Positions 997 to 39,321 of a stretch of 39,990 nucleotides of DNA are shown one piece after another. Positions within the stretch are counted from its first letter, which is position 1; each line of letters starts with the position of its first letter. Position numbers and translations under genes: made by a program. The notes beneath the pieces are model-generated. The model saw nothing but the letters and a program-made list of their open reading frames with translations, did not search any database and had not been told where the DNA came from. Origin of the DNA: a bacterium (GTDB lineage: Bacteria; Zhuqueibacterota; QNDG01; DSAB01); NCBI GenBank assembly GCA_011388275.1, contig DSAB01000073.1, positions 1-39,990 on the forward strand, in the 5' to 3' direction.

Positions 997-1025
997 AAAA
1001 AAAGGAGGGCAGTCTCCCACCCTCC
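997..1025 (-). terminator. Rho-independent terminator after the csgG-like gene
   Basis: On the minus strand GGAGGG (1025-1020) pairs with CCCTCC (1009-1004) around a 10-base loop and is followed by seven T. It lies 24 bases after the csgG-like stop and closes the exported-protein operon. Confidence 0.8.
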
Positions 1026-1048
1026 TCCGAAAAGACTATTTCCATCCC

Positions 1049-1957
1049 TTACTTCAGACGCACCAGGTCCCCCTGCTTGATTCCCGACCCCGACTTGACA
1101 ACCGCCCTGGCCGCCTTGCCGCCGGACACAAATCCGGTCACCTCGATGGTGCCCGCCTTGCTCTCGATGCTGCCGAGGGACATGCCCGTATCCGGATCGA
1201 TCAGCTCTTCGCCCGGGCTGTACACGACGAACACGTCTCCCATGCTGACTCCGGCATCGGATCCGGGTTTAATGAATACCGTGGTCCCCTGCACGGTGAG
1301 GACCTTTCCTTCCCAGGGAAGATCGGTCATCTGCTTGTCGATCATTTCCATAATACTTTCAATGGATTCGCGGGTGGCCTTGCCTACCAGAGAATTGTCG
1401 AAATCGCTTCGATCCCGGAACGAAGCCTGCGGCGTGGATACGCTCACACCGCTCCTTGTCAGGTTCTTTCTGACATTGTCGGCCATAAGAATCTCTCCGG
1501 TGGTCGTGTTAACGAATCGCACATCCACCGCGACCGTGGCTTCCTGCTTCTGAACGCCCACACCAATGCCCCTGATGCGGCCGCCCGTGCTTCCCCTGGC
1601 GTAGCCGAATTCGGTTACAGCGCCCATGATCGCCAGCTCTACACCCAGCAGCTTGCCGATCTGAGCCGCGCTCTGGGGAGTCACCAGTCCGGACTGACCC
1701 ATTCTCTGCTCTTCCAGTATCCGGGCGATCTCCTGGCGCTCGATCACGGTGTATTTGCCCGACTTGACCAGTTCCGTGGTCAGCATATCGGCCATTCCGT
1801 CACCCGGTCCCTTTCCGTCCCACCAGCGCCAGCTGCGCTCCGATTTGTCTTCAAATGTAAAGACCGCCACGCGCTTCTTCAGCTGTGCGAACGAGGACAG
1901 GCCGGCAAATAAAATAACCGAAAAAACAATTCCTGAAATCACTCTTGTCGATCTCAC
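1049..1957 (-). CDS. CsgG-family outer-membrane secretion/assembly protein
   Basis: 302 residues. A signal peptide (about residues 1-24, ending SSFA-Q) precedes a CsgG-like domain. KKRVAVFTFEDKS is the usual opening strand, and GMADMLTTELVKSGKYTVIERQ is the conserved CsgG helix-strand block, given here as read across two short segments (GMADMLTTELVK, SGKYTVIERQ). CsgG of E. coli forms the curli secretion pore; relatives such as FlgO take part in flagellar outer rings. The lipobox Cys of classical CsgG is absent, so membrane attachment may differ. The last about 90 residues (GKVLTVQGTTVFIKPGSDAG, VGDVFVVYSPGE-like) resemble the C-terminal domain of FlgT-type proteins. The start is GTG with AAAGGAGG 9 bases upstream. 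It is the last gene of a four-gene operon. No curlin genes are visible. Confidence 0.85.
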   Translation of the reverse strand: MRSTRVISGIVFSVILFAGLSSFAQLKKRVAVFTFEDKSERSWRWWDGKGPGDGMADMLTTELVKSGKYTVIERQEIARILEEQRMGQSGLVTPQSAAQIGKLLGVELAIMGAVTEFGYARGSTGGRIRGIGVGVQKQEATVAVDVRFVNTTTGEILMADNVRKNLTRSGVSVSTPQASFRDRSDFDNSLVGKATRESIESIMEMIDKQMTDLPWEGKVLTVQGTTVFIKPGSDAGVSMGDVFVVYSPGEELIDPDTGMSLGSIESKAGTIEVTGFVSGGKAARAVVKSGSGIKQGDLVRLK

Positions 1958-1986
1958 GATACCAAACCTCCTTTCCGTGTGGCTGT

Positions 1987-3174
1987 CTATTCCTCTTTCG
2001 ACAGCTCTACGGTGACACTGTTCTGGGTCATGCCGACCACTCTGACGCGGATTCCCTCTATCTGCGCGTTGGACAGCCGCTGAGCCAGATCTTCATTCGT
2101 TCCGGTCATGACCACTTCGAGAGTCGCGAAACTCTCATACCATTCCCGCTGAACCACGGAGCTCAGGCCCCGTATATAATGGGGCAGCGCGTTCTTGAAA
2201 CGCGTCAGCTGATCCAGACCGGAAATGCCCTGGACCTTCAACTGGAACGTGCTTCCTGTGGATACATCCTCCTGCCAGCGGTTCAGAATCTGGTCCATCA
2301 GCTGACCGGAAAGCTTCTCGCAGGCTTTCTGAATGGCCCGGGTGCCGCCCGCCACATCGTCGATGTGGGGAAAAGCCCCCTGCTCCGTGCCCATGGCGAT
2401 GATGTCTCCCGTATCCGTGCGAATGGCCCGTACCGTCACCGTGGCCTGTTGGCTGCGCTGTTCCGTTCCGAAGGCCTTGACCACAGTGGCTTTGGCCAGG
2501 GCCTTGCCCGTAATCACGACCTCCGCGCCGACATCCCGACCCAGCGCCGCCGCCTGAGCCGCGTCGCCTTCGAGAATGGCGGCCGCTTTCCGGGCGTCCA
2601 GATTCCGTTTGACCGTGGCCTGATCCACAAACTTGAATCCTTTCATGGAAAAGGTTTGCATCAGGGCTGTTTCGGCGGTATTCATGTCCGCCTCAATGTA
2701 ATGAAAAAGCCCGGGAGCCTCTCCGATGTTGCGCTCCTCGATGATGACCATCAGGCGGGGCATGTTCTTGCGCCGCATCAGGGTGGCAATGCCGTCCAGA
2801 TCACTCTTTAAATCGGCCATTTTCACCACGGCCCGGACAGTCACTTCATACAGCTGTTCGTCGCGCCTGCCCTCTTTGATGATCTCGTAGTTCTGCACAT
2901 ATCCGCGGGTCCGGCTGAAAATCCGGTCGTCGATCAGCTGATAGTTTTCCACCAGAGTTTCGGCTTCGAGAATCAGGCCCAACGCGTTCTCAACGCTCTT
3001 TCGAAGGGCGTCGTTCACCGCGCCGTCACGCGCGTGAGCCACATCGCTTCCGATGATGGATCCGATTCCCGTGGCCACCACTTCCCGCGATTCGGATTCG
3101 CCGATCTCCTGGGCCGGCAAAACCGGCTGGAGCAACAGCAACAGCCCCGCCGCGAGGATGATTGTTCGTTTCAC
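1987..3174 (-). CDS. FlgT-like (flagellar H-ring-type) exported protein
   Basis: 395 residues, starting at GTG with GGAG 6 bases upstream. A signal peptide (MKRTIILAAGLLLLLQPVLPAQ) should send it to the periplasm or outer membrane. Residues about 45-120 show an FlgT-N/LPP20-like fold signature: NDALRKSVENALG, ETLVEN, FSRTRGYVQNYEIIKEG, then VTVRAVVKM. A middle domain carries AAALGRDVGAEVVITGKALA and RAIRTDTGDI, the motif set of FlgT-middle/CsgG-like domains. Vibrio FlgT builds the flagellar H-ring. No flagellar gene lies in the window, so the role here is probably a different envelope assembly. The gene lies 17 bases behind the SLH lipoprotein and 29 before the csgG-like gene. Fold confidence is good, function unknown. 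Confidence 0.72.
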   Translation of the reverse strand: MKRTIILAAGLLLLLQPVLPAQEIGESESREVVATGIGSIIGSDVAHARDGAVNDALRKSVENALGLILEAETLVENYQLIDDRIFSRTRGYVQNYEIIKEGRRDEQLYEVTVRAVVKMADLKSDLDGIATLMRRKNMPRLMVIIEERNIGEAPGLFHYIEADMNTAETALMQTFSMKGFKFVDQATVKRNLDARKAAAILEGDAAQAAALGRDVGAEVVITGKALAKATVVKAFGTEQRSQQATVTVRAIRTDTGDIIAMGTEQGAFPHIDDVAGGTRAIQKACEKLSGQLMDQILNRWQEDVSTGSTFQLKVQGISGLDQLTRFKNALPHYIRGLSSVVQREWYESFATLEVVMTGTNEDLAQRLSNAQIEGIRVRVVGMTQNSVTVELSKEE

Positions 3175-3191
3175 GGCCTTCTCCCCTTTGA

Positions 3192-4349
3192 TTAAAAGGT
3201 CATCCGCAAGTGATTCTGAAAGTCGCGGATTATGAGCAGCGCGTCGGCTCCGGAAACCGGATCGGACAGGCCGAAAGAACCGTCAATGGTGTTGGCTTTC
3301 ATGATGCCGCGATCCACAGCCAGACAGATCGCGTTGTACGCGTAGTGGCTGGGATTGATATCGGGAAACCGCTGCGTGCCGCCTCCGATGTATTTGGTGG
3401 CCAGGGACTGATCTCCGGTTACCAAAATCAGGCAGGACTGGAGAAACTGGGCATAATTGGCCCGTGTTATTTTCTCATTCGGATGAAATGTATGATCCGG
3501 AAACACATCGATCACACCGGCCTTGATCACATCCTCGATCCAGGTTTTGGCCCAATGGTCTTCGATATCCGTAGCCGGGGGAAGCTGTTCCCTCTCCCGG
3601 GCTTTCATGGCCATGGGATCGTCCGGAGGCCGGAAACGGGTGTCCCAGGTCTTCGGTTGCCGCTTCTCTATGATCTCCATCAGCTTCATCTCTTCGAGAA
3701 AAAGAACGGCCACGTCGGCCCTGCTGATCTCCGGAATCAGGGCGATTTTGGCGCCGACACGGGTTCCGGGAGCGGCCCGCTGTATCTTTTGAACCAGTTC
3801 CCATTCCTGATTGGCCTTTCCGGAAAAATCCCCCTTCAGGGAGATGACCCGGGCGAAAGCGGATACCGCATCGCCGAACTCAAAGGCCTCCTTGTAGGCG
3901 ACACCCCTGTAATAATGGGCTTTCTCCGATTCGGCATCGAGCTTCAGCGCCCTTTCAAAGGGTTTTAAAGCCTCTTTGAGCCAGTTGTCACCCTTCTTCT
4001 CCATGGTGAGAATCCGGCCCTTGGCGATATGCCCGTCGATAAATTTGTCGTCTTTGGAGATGCCCCGGTTGACCAGGTTCAGAGCCTCCTTGAAATCGCC
4101 CTCTTTACCCCGTATCAGGGCCAATCCGACGTACCCTCCGGGATAGTTCGGATTCAGATCCGTGGCCCGATTGAAAGACCTCTCGGCGCCGCCAAAGTCG
4201 CCGGCATCCAGCTTCCTCAAACCCTGACTGTAATGGTTGTCAGGCGTATCGAGAATCGACTCCGGCGTCACCGGTTTGGGACCGCACCCCGCCAGGACAA
4301 TGGCCAGCAGCCCCAAAATCGCTGTGAGCTTCATTACGCGATGTTCCAT
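3192..4349 (-). CDS. TPR and S-layer-homology lipoprotein
   Basis: 385 residues. The start at 4349 has GGAGG six bases upstream, favouring it over the internal Met6. The lipobox LAGC (Cys about 22) marks an exported lipoprotein. Three to four TPR units follow (residues about 40-190): YSQGLRKLDAGDFGGAERSF, then AYVGLA-like and AHYYRGVAYKEAFEFGDAVSAF helices. The C-terminal half holds SLH motifs: DIEDHWAKTWIEDVIKAGVI with FPDHTFHPNEKITRANYAQF, and a second copy beginning FPDINPSHYAYNAI. SLH domains bind cell-wall polymers, so the protein may bridge outer membrane and wall while the TPRs hold partners. It sits between the LPP20-like and FlgT-like genes and probably scaffolds them; that role is inference. 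Confidence 0.85.
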   Translation of the reverse strand: MEHRVMKLTAILGLLAIVLAGCGPKPVTPESILDTPDNHYSQGLRKLDAGDFGGAERSFNRATDLNPNYPGGYVGLALIRGKEGDFKEALNLVNRGISKDDKFIDGHIAKGRILTMEKKGDNWLKEALKPFERALKLDAESEKAHYYRGVAYKEAFEFGDAVSAFARVISLKGDFSGKANQEWELVQKIQRAAPGTRVGAKIALIPEISRADVAVLFLEEMKLMEIIEKRQPKTWDTRFRPPDDPMAMKAREREQLPPATDIEDHWAKTWIEDVIKAGVIDVFPDHTFHPNEKITRANYAQFLQSCLILVTGDQSLATKYIGGGTQRFPDINPSHYAYNAICLAVDRGIMKANTIDGSFGLSDPVSGADALLIIRDFQNHLRMTF

Positions 4350-4376
4350 AATAATCCTCCACGGAATAGGGTTCCG

Positions 4377-5282
4377 TTAATCAAGAATAAACATCACTTT
4401 GCACTGCTGCAGAAAATTCATATTGGCCGCCGCGTTGTGAATGACCGCCGCGTCATTCAGATTGATGATCACATCGGCATTATTGGGTCCGGAAGCCTCC
4501 GCAGCCTTGATGATGAGAGGATTGTCAGCCACCCGTTCGTTCATTCGGGCACGATTGACATCCTTTTCATATCCGACCATACCGATGTCCACCGCGTATT
4601 CCCTTCGGACAAACCGGGATCCATAGATCTCGTCTCCCTTTTCATCCAGCACCCGGGGCGCCATGGCGGGACGAATGCCGAGACCCCGGCAATCGATGAC
4701 CAGGCCCGTATACACGCCGCCGGATCTGCTGCCCGTGCTTTCTCCGGTCTGAATGAGCGTGATACCCGGAGGCACCGGTTTCCCGGCCGGCCAGGTCTGC
4801 CCGCAGGTGGGACATAAAAGCTGTCCACCGGTCATCAGCATGCCGCCGCCGAAATCCTGGGGCAGCAGGGCGTCGAGCACCACTCCGGTCAGGGGCACTT
4901 CCACGTCGACTTCGACGTCACCCGTCGACATATACCGGGTATCCACGATGCGGAATCCCCTTATGGCCCCCTCGACCTTGGAACTGATCACGTCACTGGA
5001 CAACATGGCGTTCTCCACCACGGTCTCGGAGGTCAGGGTGACCCCTTTGATGGTTTCCAGAATGTTTCGAAGCGCGTCCTGACGCGCCACACGCAGGGCG
5101 CCGGCCCTCTGTGCAGCCAGAGGTGCGTTGGGGTTGGGCGCTCCTATACCCGTGCATCGGATCACCTGATCCGTCCAGTTGATCTGCCCGGTATTGCCGA
5201 CCTGCTGCACATACCCCTGTGCCATCAGCATTCCGGGAATCAGCAGGACACACAACAAGACAGTACAATTTTTCCAGTTCAT
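4377..5282 (-). CDS. LPP20/FlgP-like exported protein
   Basis: 301 residues from the ATG at 5282, chosen because AGGAGG lies 6 bases upstream. An ATG farther up (5360) would run through tRNA-Gly. The signal peptide is MNWKNCTVLLCVLLIPGMLMAQ. Residues about 60-135 hold an LPP20-like domain (ARQDALRNILETIKG, ETVVEN, KVEGAIRGFRIVDTRY, VEVDVEVPLTGVV), clearly related to the N-terminal domain of the FlgT-like protein two genes on. A lone CPTC pair follows (LLCPTCGQTW). The C-terminal half (VYTGLVIDCRGLGIRPAM to the end) matches nothing I can name. First gene of the four-gene operon, 48 bases after the tRNA. Confidence 0.7.
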   Translation of the reverse strand: MNWKNCTVLLCVLLIPGMLMAQGYVQQVGNTGQINWTDQVIRCTGIGAPNPNAPLAAQRAGALRVARQDALRNILETIKGVTLTSETVVENAMLSSDVISSKVEGAIRGFRIVDTRYMSTGDVEVDVEVPLTGVVLDALLPQDFGGGMLMTGGQLLCPTCGQTWPAGKPVPPGITLIQTGESTGSRSGGVYTGLVIDCRGLGIRPAMAPRVLDEKGDEIYGSRFVRREYAVDIGMVGYEKDVNRARMNERVADNPLIIKAAEASGPNNADVIINLNDAAVIHNAAANMNFLQQCKVMFILD

Positions 5283-5330
5283 GGCAACCCTCCTGTCAGT
5301 ATGAGTTGGGACCAATCTCCCATAAAAAAG

Positions 5331-5403
5331 AGCGAATGACGGGATTCGAACCCGCGACATCCAGCTTGGGAAGCTGGCGCTCTACCAACTGAGCTACATT
5401 CGC
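5331..5403 (-). tRNA. tRNA-Gly(CCC)
   Basis: 73 bases with a full cloverleaf on the minus strand. The acceptor GCGAATG pairs with CATTCGC. The D arm is GCTC...GAGC. The anticodon stem is CCAGC/GCTGG with loop TTCCCAA, giving anticodon CCC. The T arm contains TTCGAAT. The discriminator is T, as usual for bacterial Gly. CCA is not encoded. Six T follow shortly, then the exported-protein operon. Confidence 0.96.
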
Positions 5404-6964: not shown

Positions 6965-9733
6965 TCAACGGATTAAAATGGCCCGCCGAATGTCCCTGAA
7001 TGACCCGGCCTGCATCATGATGAAATACACACCCGTGGATACCGGCTGTCCTGCCGTATCCGTACCATTCCATACAACGGCATGAAACCCGGGTTCATAC
7101 ACATTCTGGGTCAGCACCCTGACCTGCTGTCCGAACATGTTGTAGACCACAATCCACACATCGGCCGATTCGGAAAGGGCGAAATGCACGATGGTCTGTG
7201 TGTTGAACGGATTGGGATAATTCTGGTTCAAGGCCGTTTCTCGAGGAAGCATGTCATCCGTCTCACCACCCGTTCCGGTGGCCAGATAGAATGTGAAGAA
7301 GCCTCCGATGCAGGGAGTGACCAGACTGTCCCGGTCAACAGCCAGAACACGCCAGAAATACCGGCCATCCATAAATTCATCGGGCCACAGTAGCGTCAGT
7401 TGATTATCGGAGATTTCCGTGCGGGTTATCATCGCGGATCCGGTGAAGGAGGAATCCGTGTCCAGCTGGAACAGATAGGTCAGTGTGTCACCCGGATCCG
7501 GATCAACCGCCTCCTCCCATTCGAATTCCAGAGAATGCGGCATGGTCACCGCGGCCCATCCGTCGGGCGGATGCAGCAGGGAAAAAGGCAGGGGCGGATC
7601 CGGTACGGGAAGTATCTCGATAACCACAAGGTCCCATCCCGTCTCTCCAAGCGGATCCCGCACGCCGACCCTGATACTGTCGATCCCGAACCAGTGAGGC
7701 TCATGCGAGAAGATCTTCAGGGTTTTGGCGGTCGTGTCCACCTTTGTGTTGATATGGGTTCCGGGTTCCGCCAGAACGATTAAAACCGAATCGGGATTGT
7801 TATCCTGAGTGTGGGCCAGAATGAATTCCCAGGTCCAGGTCAGTGTGTCGTCTTCGGCGAACATTGTATCCGGTAAAACGACTTCAGGTGTCCTGTTCCC
7901 GAAATGGGCGGTTATGGACTTCGGACGCGTCATGACCACACTTTGGGGATTTTCCGCGCCCGCGGCATCACCCGTCCAGTACAGAAAATCATACCAGCCG
8001 AGAGGTTCCGCCATTACCATTACCGAACTGTCCCGATCGACCCATAATCCGGGTGCAGGCGGATTCAGCGTCCCCGCACCCTCGGGCTGCGCATCCAGCT
8101 TGAGATAATATTGTGTGGAAAACCAGGCGGTCAGTGTGTCGTCCCTGTCGGGCGTTTGATAGAGCAGAACACGAGAAGAATCGTGATCCCAGTGCTGAAA
8201 AAGATGGCGGATTCCGGTTTCTTCGACAATGGAATCGCATTGAATTGTGTATGAGCAGTTTTCTTCGACCCGTACCTGGTATGGAGTGATCCCCATGTCC
8301 CCGTCAAAATAGACAGGAAGTCCCTGAGGGCGTGAATCGACGGTCAGGGTATACACATGCACACGATCCTGAATGCGGACGTTGCAGTCGGGCGATACAC
8401 TCTGCAAGTCAGCCAATCCATTCGCGCTTTCATACTCGAGGTTCTCAGGCACGACAATACTGGATAGAGTCATTGCGACCCGGCCCTGGATAGAAGACCC
8501 CGTAACTTCAATTCCATGATCTCCATAGGATCGCCGGTCGCCCGTATCATAAGATTCCGGAAAAAAATGATCCCGAAAGAAAAGACGCTGTTTATCGCCT
8601 GGGGGCGTGCCTTGAAGATACCACAGAGTCAGCAGGGAGCCCCGCGATATCACCGAATAGGGATGATCGGGATTGCCCGCTATGACCATCCAGTTCATTC
8701 CCGGCCATAAAATGGTGTCATTCAGCGAGCGGTTGAACAAATCGATGGTTTCGCCCTCCGGATTGGCGGGGTTAAAAAAGGTCATGCCCATGGCATGGGT
8801 GGATCCGTCGAAAGATATTCGAAGCCGTTCCACCCGCCCTTCATTAAAAGAAGGGATGTGAAAAGCGTCCGGGATCCAGTCAATACGGGACGGATAAAAA
8901 TATCCAAGAAAATGCAGGCTGTCCTCGAATTCAATCTTGTTCCCCAAAACATTCCCGAAGGCCCGTATCTTCAGTGTATTCCGGCGCCAGAGACGAACGA
9001 CTCCCGATCCGCCGATACTCGTCTTGCCGCTTTTTGCGGTGACATGCAGACTGACACCCGGCACCAGCTGAATGTCCTCATCCATGGATTCCTTGATGAC
9101 CACGGTTTTATTCAGGCCGTATTCGGTAATCCGCAGGTGCAGACGAAGCTTTTTAAGGTCCAAAAGATCGAGACTGTCTCCGCCCGCCGATTTCCTGATA
9201 AGCAAAGAGTCCAGCAGTCCTCCCGGACCGTAATGCACGGTATAAACCGGTGAATAGAACCAGTCTTCCTGAGGATCCGCCGTGATCAATGCCGGATGGC
9301 CGGGCGTCTGAGTCCTGACCAGATAGAGCCATTTCCGCGACCCGGAATTCGATTCGCGCAGAGTCAGCTGAATGCGCTGTTCAAAACCGTCATCACCGGT
9401 CCATTCGGTGGGCGGAGCACTGTCTCCGGCCGCGTTTTCGAAAAAGACCAGCTCGTCATCTTCGTCCAATATTCCGTTGCCCTGTATTCGCAGCACGCCC
9501 GAACGGTCCCGTTCATCCCACTGAAAAGGGACGGAATGCCATGTGCCTTCTGTTTCATCATACCGGACCAGACTGAGATATTCGAGCGGCTCGCCCAGAA
9601 AAGCGGCCATCTCCGCTCCCTGAATCACGACCGGACGAATCCGATGCCAGTCTTCAGCCCCTGCGGCGGAAACAGCGGGAATCAGCGCGCAAAAGAAAAC
9701 GGCAAGCGGTCGATGTATGGCATTTCGGATCAT
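6965..9733 (-). CDS. Large secreted/surface protein with C-terminal sorting domain
   Basis: 922 residues. A signal peptide precedes AGA-EDWH. The N-terminal about 470 residues form a beta-rich region with no family I recognise. Residues about 480-640 hold two InlB-type bacterial repeat modules (VDSRPQGLPVYFDGDMGITP; LDAQPEGAGTLNPPAPG, each ending in TAWF/TAHFG). A Fn3-like segment follows (LEFEWEEAVDPDPGD, YFWRVLAVD). The end, LNQNYPNPFN to IRRAILIR, is the T9SS type A/FlgD-like sorting domain of FCB bacteria. So it is probably secreted and surface-attached. No type IX genes are in the window. The ATG at 9733 is 15 bases from AAGGAGG. An in-frame CTG at 9742 is 6 bases from it and may be the true start. 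Confidence 0.8.
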   Translation of the reverse strand: MIRNAIHRPLAVFFCALIPAVSAAGAEDWHRIRPVVIQGAEMAAFLGEPLEYLSLVRYDETEGTWHSVPFQWDERDRSGVLRIQGNGILDEDDELVFFENAAGDSAPPTEWTGDDGFEQRIQLTLRESNSGSRKWLYLVRTQTPGHPALITADPQEDWFYSPVYTVHYGPGGLLDSLLIRKSAGGDSLDLLDLKKLRLHLRITEYGLNKTVVIKESMDEDIQLVPGVSLHVTAKSGKTSIGGSGVVRLWRRNTLKIRAFGNVLGNKIEFEDSLHFLGYFYPSRIDWIPDAFHIPSFNEGRVERLRISFDGSTHAMGMTFFNPANPEGETIDLFNRSLNDTILWPGMNWMVIAGNPDHPYSVISRGSLLTLWYLQGTPPGDKQRLFFRDHFFPESYDTGDRRSYGDHGIEVTGSSIQGRVAMTLSSIVVPENLEYESANGLADLQSVSPDCNVRIQDRVHVYTLTVDSRPQGLPVYFDGDMGITPYQVRVEENCSYTIQCDSIVEETGIRHLFQHWDHDSSRVLLYQTPDRDDTLTAWFSTQYYLKLDAQPEGAGTLNPPAPGLWVDRDSSVMVMAEPLGWYDFLYWTGDAAGAENPQSVVMTRPKSITAHFGNRTPEVVLPDTMFAEDDTLTWTWEFILAHTQDNNPDSVLIVLAEPGTHINTKVDTTAKTLKIFSHEPHWFGIDSIRVGVRDPLGETGWDLVVIEILPVPDPPLPFSLLHPPDGWAAVTMPHSLEFEWEEAVDPDPGDTLTYLFQLDTDSSFTGSAMITRTEISDNQLTLLWPDEFMDGRYFWRVLAVDRDSLVTPCIGGFFTFYLATGTGGETDDMLPRETALNQNYPNPFNTQTIVHFALSESADVWIVVYNMFGQQVRVLTQNVYEPGFHAVVWNGTDTAGQPVSTGVYFIMMQAGSFRDIRRAILIR

Positions 9734-37944: not shown

Positions 37945-39321
37945 TCACACTCCGGGTTGTGATGACTCTTTTTCTTTCAATGTATTGACGACTTCGTCCA
38001 GATGCATGGACCGGCTCCCTTTGACACACAATCCATCTCCCGGGCGTACATAATCAGCCAGATCCCGGGCCAGTTTTACCGGGTCGGAATAGTGCCAGGC
38101 GGACTTCATCCCCCCTTCACGGGCGGCGTTTACCGTGATGCGCATCAAAGGCCCCAATCCGAACAGGCTGTCGAGACCTGCCTGAACGATGAGCATGCCT
38201 AGAATTCTATGTTCCTTCGGACCGCAATCCCCCAATTCCAGCATGTCTCCGAACACGGCGATGCGTCTGCCGGACACCGGCAGCTCCTTTAAAGTATCGA
38301 TGGAAGCGGCCGCGGACGAGGGATTGCTGTTGTATGTGTCATCTATCAGTTTTACGCCGTTGACAACCATCAGGACGCTGCGTTTCTCAACCGGACTGAA
38401 TTGGTTCAGTCTTACCGCCATCTCATCCAGGGACAGACCGAATGCATCCCCCACAGCCAGGGCGGCCAGCGCGTTGTAAAGATGATGCCTGCCTGGAATG
38501 TTCAGCCGGAACACGTGACCGGAAACCTTCATCCGCGGACATCCCCGCTCATCAGAAGGGAGCGGTTCACCGCGCAGGTCGCATAATTTCGAAAAGCCGA
38601 AAGTATGGGTCAAACGGACTCGATTGACGACACGCCTCAGAAGAGCATCATCGCCGTTGAGAAAAACCCGGCCATTCGACAGGAAATCCAGCATTTCGCT
38701 CTTCGCCCTTAAAACGCCCTCCAGATCGCCAAAATAGCCGATGTGAGCCTTGCCGATATTCGTGATCACACCATGAGTCGGCTGGGCCAGACGGCTCAGT
38801 GTGTGGATCTCACCGAAATGATTGGCGCCCAATTCGAAAACCGCCGTCTCCGCCTGCGCATTCAATCGGCACAAAGAAAGAGGCAGGCCGATGTGATTGT
38901 TCAGATTGCCCTGATTTTTCAGAACCCTGTACCGAATCTGCAATACGCAGGCTATCATCTCCTTGGTGGTGGTCTTGCCGTTTGATCCTGTTACGGCCAC
39001 CACAGGGATGTCACAGGTTTTCCGTATATGAGAAGCCAGACGGTGAAGGCCATGCAGGGGATCATCAACCGCCAGGATATTTCCGGAAATATTCTCTTCC
39101 TGTCGAGATTCCCATTCGCGGCTGACCACCACGCCCACAGCACCTCTTGAGATGGCGTCCTTCACGTACAAATGCCCATCGGTTTGCCCTTGAAGTGCGA
39201 AAAAGAGCATGCCGGGTTTCAGGGTTCGTGTATCGATGGATACACCGCTGACCGGCCTTTCCTCTCCCTTCCAGGTTTCAGCACCCACAATCGAAGCGAT
39301 TTCGGCAAACGTAAGGTTCAC
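37945..39321 (-). CDS. murF: UDP-MurNAc-tripeptide--D-Ala-D-Ala ligase
   Basis: 458 residues. Adds D-Ala-D-Ala to finish the stem peptide. Motifs are VSIDTRTLKPGMLFFALQG, VAVTGSNGKTTTKEMIA (P-loop), NLNNHIGLPLSL, FELGANHFGEI and DDTYNSNPSSAAASIDTL. Complete. Its ATG overlaps the murE stop by 4 bases. The D-Ala-D-Ala ligase that feeds it is not in the window. Confidence 0.97.
   Translation of the reverse strand: MNLTFAEIASIVGAETWKGEERPVSGVSIDTRTLKPGMLFFALQGQTDGHLYVKDAISRGAVGVVVSREWESRQEENISGNILAVDDPLHGLHRLASHIRKTCDIPVVAVTGSNGKTTTKEMIACVLQIRYRVLKNQGNLNNHIGLPLSLCRLNAQAETAVFELGANHFGEIHTLSRLAQPTHGVITNIGKAHIGYFGDLEGVLRAKSEMLDFLSNGRVFLNGDDALLRRVVNRVRLTHTFGFSKLCDLRGEPLPSDERGCPRMKVSGHVFRLNIPGRHHLYNALAALAVGDAFGLSLDEMAVRLNQFSPVEKRSVLMVVNGVKLIDDTYNSNPSSAAASIDTLKELPVSGRRIAVFGDMLELGDCGPKEHRILGMLIVQAGLDSLFGLGPLMRITVNAAREGGMKSAWHYSDPVKLARDLADYVRPGDGLCVKGSRSMHLDEVVNTLKEKESSQPGV

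Follow-up and report, generated by a model that had tools for sequence, protein, structure and literature searches.

A four-gene operon of the candidate phylum KSB1 joins relatives of flagellar outer-ring proteins to a TPR-SLH lipoprotein

The H-ring of Vibrio is made up of FlgO, FlgP and FlgT; its presumed roles are penetration of the outer membrane and anchoring of the flagellum (PMC7990780). Beneath the outer membrane of Campylobacter jejuni FlgP assembles into concentric rings, and within the FlgP family ring formation is accompanied by an insert that follows the SHS2 helix (PMC12222027). OmpM, which presumably links the outer membrane to the cell wall through its SLH domain, has been reported as widespread in the diderm Terrabacteria and as absent from the Gracilicutes (PMC10628300). 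We describe here a four-gene operon in which these two themes, that of the flagellar accessory proteins (FlgP, FlgT, FlgO) and that of the SLH tether (OmpM, a Terrabacteria trait), are joined. It is located in a stretch of 39,990 nucleotides (contig DSAB01000073.1 of assembly GCA_011388275.1, positions 1 to 39,990; hereafter the window) from a 96.5%-complete genome of the candidate phylum KSB1, which is named Zhuqueibacterota in the NCBI taxonomy and belongs to the Fibrobacteres-Chlorobi-Bacteroidetes (FCB) group. The interpretation that we favour, with a probability of roughly 0.45, is that the operon encodes an outer-membrane-associated and wall-tethered periplasmic ring or scaffold which is kin to parts of the flagellar H-ring and basal disk and which operates independently of a flagellum.

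The four genes, numbered here in the order of transcription, all lie on the minus strand and are separated by 27, 17 and 29 bases. Each of the four starts follows a purine-rich ribosome-binding site, each product has a hydrophobic signal segment at its N-terminus and an intrinsic terminator follows the last gene; the operon of four exported proteins, with gaps of 17-29 bases and a closing terminator, that had been described in a sequence-only reading of this DNA is therefore present in all its parts. The same reading had ended the operon at 5282, and this start of gene 1 is indeed to be preferred over that of the longest open reading frame, which reaches 5360 and runs into the tRNA-Gly gene at 5403-5330. 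A lipobox (LAGC, with Gly at position +2) is found in gene 2 only, and together with TPR repeats and two SLH domains in the same product (Pfam, 55.1 bits, above the cut-off, E 7e-15) it bears out the presence of an SLH lipoprotein. The features are the following.

4377 to 5282, minus strand: gene 1, exported, non-lipidated LPP20-domain protein of 301 amino acids with a C-terminal Tp0624-D2-like domain (sequence, Pfam, profile)
4896 to 5108, minus strand: residues 59-129 of gene 1, LPP20 / FlgP-like domain of the SHS2 type (Pfam and profile)
4386 to 4727, minus strand: residues 186-299 of gene 1, its C-terminal domain, a relative of D2 of Treponema Tp0624 (5jir) (profile)
3192 to 4349, minus strand: gene 2, lipoprotein (LAGC lipobox, Gly at +2) of 385 amino acids with TPR repeats and two SLH domains
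3459 to 3572, minus strand: first SLH domain of gene 2, with the motif ITRAN instead of TRAE
3240 to 3371, minus strand: second SLH domain of gene 2, with the degenerate motif VSGAD
1987 to 3174, minus strand: gene 3, exported FlgT/LipL46-like protein of 395 amino acids
2830 to 3081, minus strand: residues 32-115 of gene 3, resembling FlgT_N with a score under the curated cut-off
1049 to 1957, minus strand: gene 4, exported non-lipidated CsgG-domain protein of 302 amino acids with a FlgT-C/TsaP-like C-terminal domain
1307 to 1894, minus strand: CsgG domain of gene 4 (Pfam)
1064 to 1291, minus strand: residues 223-298 of gene 4, its C-terminal domain, with kinship to the C-terminal part of TsaP (3jc8) (profile)
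1001 to 1028, minus strand: intrinsic terminator closing the operon, 20 bases 3' of the last stop
5330 to 5403, minus strand: tRNA-Gly(CCC), 47 bases upstream of gene 1, the 5' limit and outside the system

The kinship to flagellar outer-ring proteins proposed by the sequence-only reading was upheld for three of the four products: FlgP chains match gene 1, and FlgT matches the models of genes 3 and 4. Gene 1 scores 36 bits for the LPP20 domain of Pfam (cut-off 25.9, E 1e-8), and a profile of ten orthologues, compared with PDB chains, matches FlgP chains (C. jejuni 9hmf, Vibrio 8z5n and others) over residues 44-126 with E values of 1e-8 to 1e-3. The alignment with C. jejuni FlgP (9hmf_C) is near-gapless through a stretch that probably corresponds to the ring-forming hairpin insert of FlgP. 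Gene 1 shows no lipobox where its signal segment is probably cleaved, and only four of its 48 KSB1 homologues show even a loose lipobox pattern. Further downstream, residues 186-299 of the profile match Tp0624 of Treponema pallidum (5jir, E 1.8e-7), and we take this region to be the domain called D2 in the description of that protein, where D2 is a fold without known relatives, preceded by an N-terminal alpha/beta domain and followed by an OmpA-like domain, so that a D1-D2 unit is fused to a putatively wall-binding domain (PMC5104382). This fusion may be likened to the present arrangement, in which the D2-bearing gene 1 adjoins the gene for the TPR-SLH lipoprotein; both functional units would combine an N-terminal alpha/beta domain with a putative wall-binding module, which Tp0624 has in the same chain whereas the operon has it in a separate lipoprotein. 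As a separate observation, Cys157 and Cys160 of gene 1 (in a CPxCGQ motif, residues 157-162) and Cys294 are invariant among the orthologues of the class and could represent a metal site or a disulfide.

Gene 3 scores 22.6 bits for FlgT_N, under the curated cut-off of 28.8. Its AlphaFold2 model, based on 27 sequences and with a predicted local distance difference test (pLDDT) value of 82, has FlgT as best match in the PDB (FlgT 3w1e and the LPHT ring 8z5n on top, best E 7e-11). Gene 3 and its relatives also align along most of the model of the Leptospira protein LipL46, but gene 3 lies far under the cut-off of that family (64.5 bits vs 400) and is not a lipoprotein. For gene 4 the model (11 sequences, pLDDT 79) is again matched first by an LPHT ring chain (8z5n) and by FlgT (3w1e), with E values of 2e-14 and 7e-14 and template modelling (TM) scores of 0.63 and 0.57, and CsgG comes next, with E values of 2.5e-10 and weaker and TM-scores of 0.33-0.41. 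FlgT-like domains are distributed over two proteins. At its C-terminus gene 4 has a domain that matches a TsaP chain from the type IV pilus machine (3jc8). TsaP is a secretin-associated protein, and gene 4 differs from it in having no LysM domain; a secretin gene was not noticed among the genes that recur beside the operon. The expectation that gene 4 would be FlgO-like was not borne out, as no FlgO-family entry appeared among its matches at E values up to 1.

The CsgG domain of gene 4 is unequivocal (146 bits vs a cut-off of 20.8, E 1e-42) and near-complete, covering positions 4-208 of the 210 of the Pfam model. The sequence-only reading had allowed for a pore, and a wall-fixed outer-membrane secretion pore, with gene 4 as a CsgG-type channel for a cargo, would also be in keeping with the presence of CsgG among the top structural matches. 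When the model was inspected for the pore-forming segments of CsgG, the result was divided: the first hairpin (residues 108-150), which aligns to the first membrane hairpin of CsgG, is long and is modelled, with no face that is clearly hydrophobic, while the second segment (residues about 160-187) contains many charged residues and forms a short hairpin in the model. Furthermore, a lipid anchor is missing throughout, a lipobox being present in none of the 42 members of the gene 4 family. CsgG has been described as a lipoprotein, and its non-lipidated form has been solved as a pre-pore, according to the PDB title of 4uv2. With its missing lipid anchor and its polar and charged segments, gene 4 resembles a FlgT-like ring protein more than it does the CsgG pore; for these reasons, and because of the short second hairpin and the better fit of FlgT to the model, a CsgG-type pore formed by gene 4 is unlikely. 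As for the curli channel itself, gene 4 falls far short of the curli-specific equivalog model NF011731 (34.8 bits vs a cut-off of 505), carries an additional FlgT-C/TsaP-like domain and is found in a genome without CsgF. No conserved candidate cargo gene was detected among the operon neighbours across loci, and CsgF occurs in just two of the 82 KSB1 genomes, so that secretion through a channel of this type appears improbable as the function of the operon. A curli system was considered and rejected on the same CsgF results.

Conservation of the operon was analyzed within the phylum, most of the compared genomes being metagenome assemblies. In the class of the window (12 genomes including the source genome) orthologues of the operon genes share 53-72% identity; a full-length orthologue of gene 3 is present in 11 genomes, with 54-69% identity outside the source genome, and gene order is identical in every locus complete enough to tell. 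Across the phylum gene 1 has a match in 58 and gene 2 in 55 of the 82 genomes, gene 2 being the most conserved member of the operon. A search of the phylum for the gene order, as had been suggested for this DNA, showed that all 35 fetched KSB1 loci which hold the four genes have them in the same order and on one strand, with truncated loci concordant; this conservation of gene order is far beyond chance. Variants do exist. In families f9, f10 and f12 there is a reduced form consisting of an LPP20 and CsgG pair, related to genes 1 and 4, without the TPR-SLH and FlgT-like genes (L105, L107-L109), and in families f20/f21 a second CsgG-domain gene follows gene 4 (L074, L075, L083, L085, L112), which suggests a paralogous subunit. 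In one further genome (G007, contig C26, L040) a second, partial FlgT-like plus CsgG copy is seen at the start of a contig, the full operon being located elsewhere in that genome.

The relationship of the operon to flagella was addressed using FliG as single marker for flagella and, likewise, CsgF as single marker for curli. Neither was found anywhere in the source genome, which extends to the whole genome, for these two markers, the earlier remark that no flagellar or curli gene is in view. FliG-like frames were counted if both their size and their score were in the usual range; FliG_C matches in frames of 487-648 amino acids (G026, G056, G057 and G064) were judged by frame length and score to be probably MgtE-like and were left out. 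Among 49 well-assembled KSB1 genomes FliG is present in 10 and absent from 23 of the carriers of the operon, as against 13 with and three without FliG among the non-carriers, a negative association which is uncorrected for shared ancestry. Flagella have been reported for some KSB1 clades (PMC9012183). On two complete chromosomes of Neomarinimicrobiota, fliG and the cluster are separated by about 120 kb and 575 kb. A flagellar operon was therefore rejected, on the absence of FliG here and from 23 of the 33 well-assembled carriers and on the long distance to fliG; occurrence solely beside flagellar genes, which would have spoken for such an operon, is not what is seen. Independence of the operon from flagellar and curli genes is supported by these data. 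An accessory ring of the flagellum, either a relic or one serving distant flagellar genes, would explain the FlgP and FlgT kinship of genes 1, 3 and 4 and the FliG found in 10 of the 33 carriers, and in one genome (G016, locus L106) where only the LPP20 gene is in view, this distant homologue of gene 1 does precede flgB/flgC/fliF-looking genes by 3.7 kb. This explanation is nevertheless already contradicted by the distribution of FliG in carriers and non-carriers and by the chromosomal distances, and such strong conservation where flagella are missing is not what would be expected of a relic; we regard it as highly improbable.

The operon has in common with the Vibrio H-ring and the LPHT ring a FlgP-related LPP20-type domain, FlgT-like models of genes 3 and 4 and a presumed association of ring proteins with the outer membrane, and it differs in that most of its carriers have no flagellum, in lacking a FlgO match, in a gene 1 product that is non-lipidated and has an extra D2 domain, in the spread of FlgT-like domains over two genes and in the addition of the SLH lipoprotein. 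With the Campylobacter basal disk (FlgP/FlgQ) it shares the FlgP-type domain with its putative ring-forming insert and a presumed link to the outer membrane, but the operon is without a flagellar motor and without the PflA/B/C context and has other partners.

In the scaffold that we favour, the lipid of gene 2 would hold this protein in the outer membrane while its SLH domains reach the wall, and the TPR repeats would offer a docking surface. By analogy with their relatives, the products of genes 1, 3 and 4 might then oligomerise as FlgP/FlgT-type rings, or as a lattice, on the platform provided by gene 2. In its simplest form the assembly would be a structural collar between outer membrane and wall. 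Gene 2 is the sole SLH protein found in the source genome, and by domain identity an anchoring to the wall through SLH is plausible. It resembles OmpM and SlpA of the diderm Terrabacteria in this presumed tethering role, and differs from them in having a lipid anchor and TPR repeats instead of a coiled-coil stalk and in its occurrence in Gracilicutes; lipobox, TPR and SLH are all that it contains, and the C-terminal outer-membrane beta-barrel of OmpM/SlpA is not present.

A number of observations weigh against this interpretation. The SLH motifs of gene 2 are atypical (ITRAN and VSGAD) and there are only two SLH domains per chain; in addition, no match to PS_pyruv_trans (CsaB-type) was found in the source genome, nor in 54 of the 82 genomes of the phylum, although the ligand may be a different one. 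SLH domains can bind other modified walls, for example the polyaminated peptidoglycan of Negativicutes (PMC10628300). Because of the atypical motifs, the presence of only two repeats and the missing PS_pyruv_trans match in the source genome, the SLH step is the weakest part of the proposed mechanism. Of the wall fixing that had been read from the sequence, the two SLH domains above the cut-off thus stand, while the altered motifs and the missing CsaB-type enzyme tell against it. The OmpA-like domain of Tp0624, to which the arrangement of genes 1 and 2 was likened above, showed no binding of diaminopimelic acid (PMC5104382). Lastly, the model of gene 3 has a full-chain TM-score of just 0.26 with FlgT, arising either from the domain arrangement or from weak similarity, and its insert is modelled as helices at low AlphaFold2 confidence.

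The distribution beyond KSB1 was addressed by a scan of one genome per species, which identified 198 relatives of gene 2. Among the 80 best of these, from which the groups were read, are members of the Neomarinimicrobiota, Fibrobacterota/Chitinispirillaceae, Nitrospirota, Desulfobacterota and Electryonea, and lipobox plus SLH were confirmed in representatives of the sampled groups. Most of these gene 2 relatives adjoin an LPP20 gene, and many are also accompanied by a LipL46/FlgT-like gene and by CsgG-domain genes; several Nitrospirota loci contain two or three LPP20 genes. In 34 loci from several phyla the cluster has a FecR-domain gene in its vicinity, in most cases downstream and on the same strand, and in six Neomarinimicrobiota/Nitrospirota loci a CHASE2-guanylate/adenylate cyclase. 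Since relatives add these proteins, some lineages may monitor the condition of the scaffold. A complex whose main task is envelope sensing, in which the LPP20, FlgT and CsgG-fold proteins would gauge the link between outer membrane and wall together with the SLH lipoprotein and FecR and the CHASE2 cyclase would signal inward, draws on the same neighbours and has a parallel in Burkholderia, where one operon, which regulates biofilms, encodes a LysM+FecR protein together with a CHASE2 histidine kinase (PMC5192318). Against it stands that the operon of this window is closed by the terminator and that neither FecR nor CHASE2 comes after the operon here or elsewhere in the class, so that the conserved core works there without them, and we consider sensing as the primary function to be unlikely.

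Wall enzymes are found near the cluster in two groups, and we count them for the scaffold. In two Fibrobacterota loci (L150 and L153) the LPP20 and TPR-SLH pair stands behind an MraY-like gene (in L150 with 185.5 bits, just under the mraY cut-off of 192) and a methyltransferase-like gene. In one Nitrospirota locus (L155, 5828-18835) an SLT transglycosylase comes before the LPP20 and TPR-SLH pair, and the cluster continues with two more LPP20 genes, a GNA1162-like/beta-helix protein, a CHASE2-cyclase, a LipL46-like and a GNA1162-like gene. These enzymes would also fit a regulator of peptidoglycan synthesis in which an outer-membrane TPR lipoprotein with LpoB-fold partners activates a synthase through the wall, as LpoA/LpoB do, and gene 4 does pass the Pfam cut-off for LpoB (22.5 vs 22.3 bits) and has LpoB (4q6l) among its structural matches. 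This match is far weaker than those to CsgG or FlgT, the cut-off of the NCBIfam LpoB model is far off (23 vs 110 bits), gene 4 lacks a lipid anchor and the genes that recur beside the operon in KSB1 do not include wall enzymes; we consider a role of the Lpo type as unlikely as the sensing one. The recurrent KSB1 neighbours look like housekeeping genes (permease-like, a PDZ-bearing protein, a Der-type GTPase and a MiaA-like enzyme, named by eye from sequence).

It is conceivable, if rather doubtful at present, that these loci together represent an undescribed outer membrane-to-wall ring system of Gracilicutes in six or more groups, anchored by an SLH lipoprotein where OmpM is reported absent and having ring proteins in common with the H-rings and basal disks of flagella; flagellar rings may in that case derive from such a stand-alone scaffold, or the reverse. 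No description of an SLH-lipoprotein/ring-protein operon was found in the open-access literature searched, which leaves out most subscription papers; the protein families are known, and their combination and breadth appear to be new. If true, the system would be a candidate for how the envelopes of largely flagellum-free Gracilicutes hold together, the origin of the flagellar outer rings would become testable and orphan proteins such as Tp0624 and LipL46 would gain a context.

No match to the operon was found in a viral collection. Elsewhere in the window, at 6965-9733 on the minus strand, there is a gene for an exported protein of 922 amino acids that ends in a FlgD_ig / weak Por_Secre_tail domain, as in cargo of type IX secretion, and tails of this kind recur among the KSB1 neighbours of the operon. 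A Mur ligase is encoded at 37945-39321 (minus strand), and the closely spaced genes from about 31839 look like a cell-wall/division (dcw) cluster, which has no positional link to the operon.

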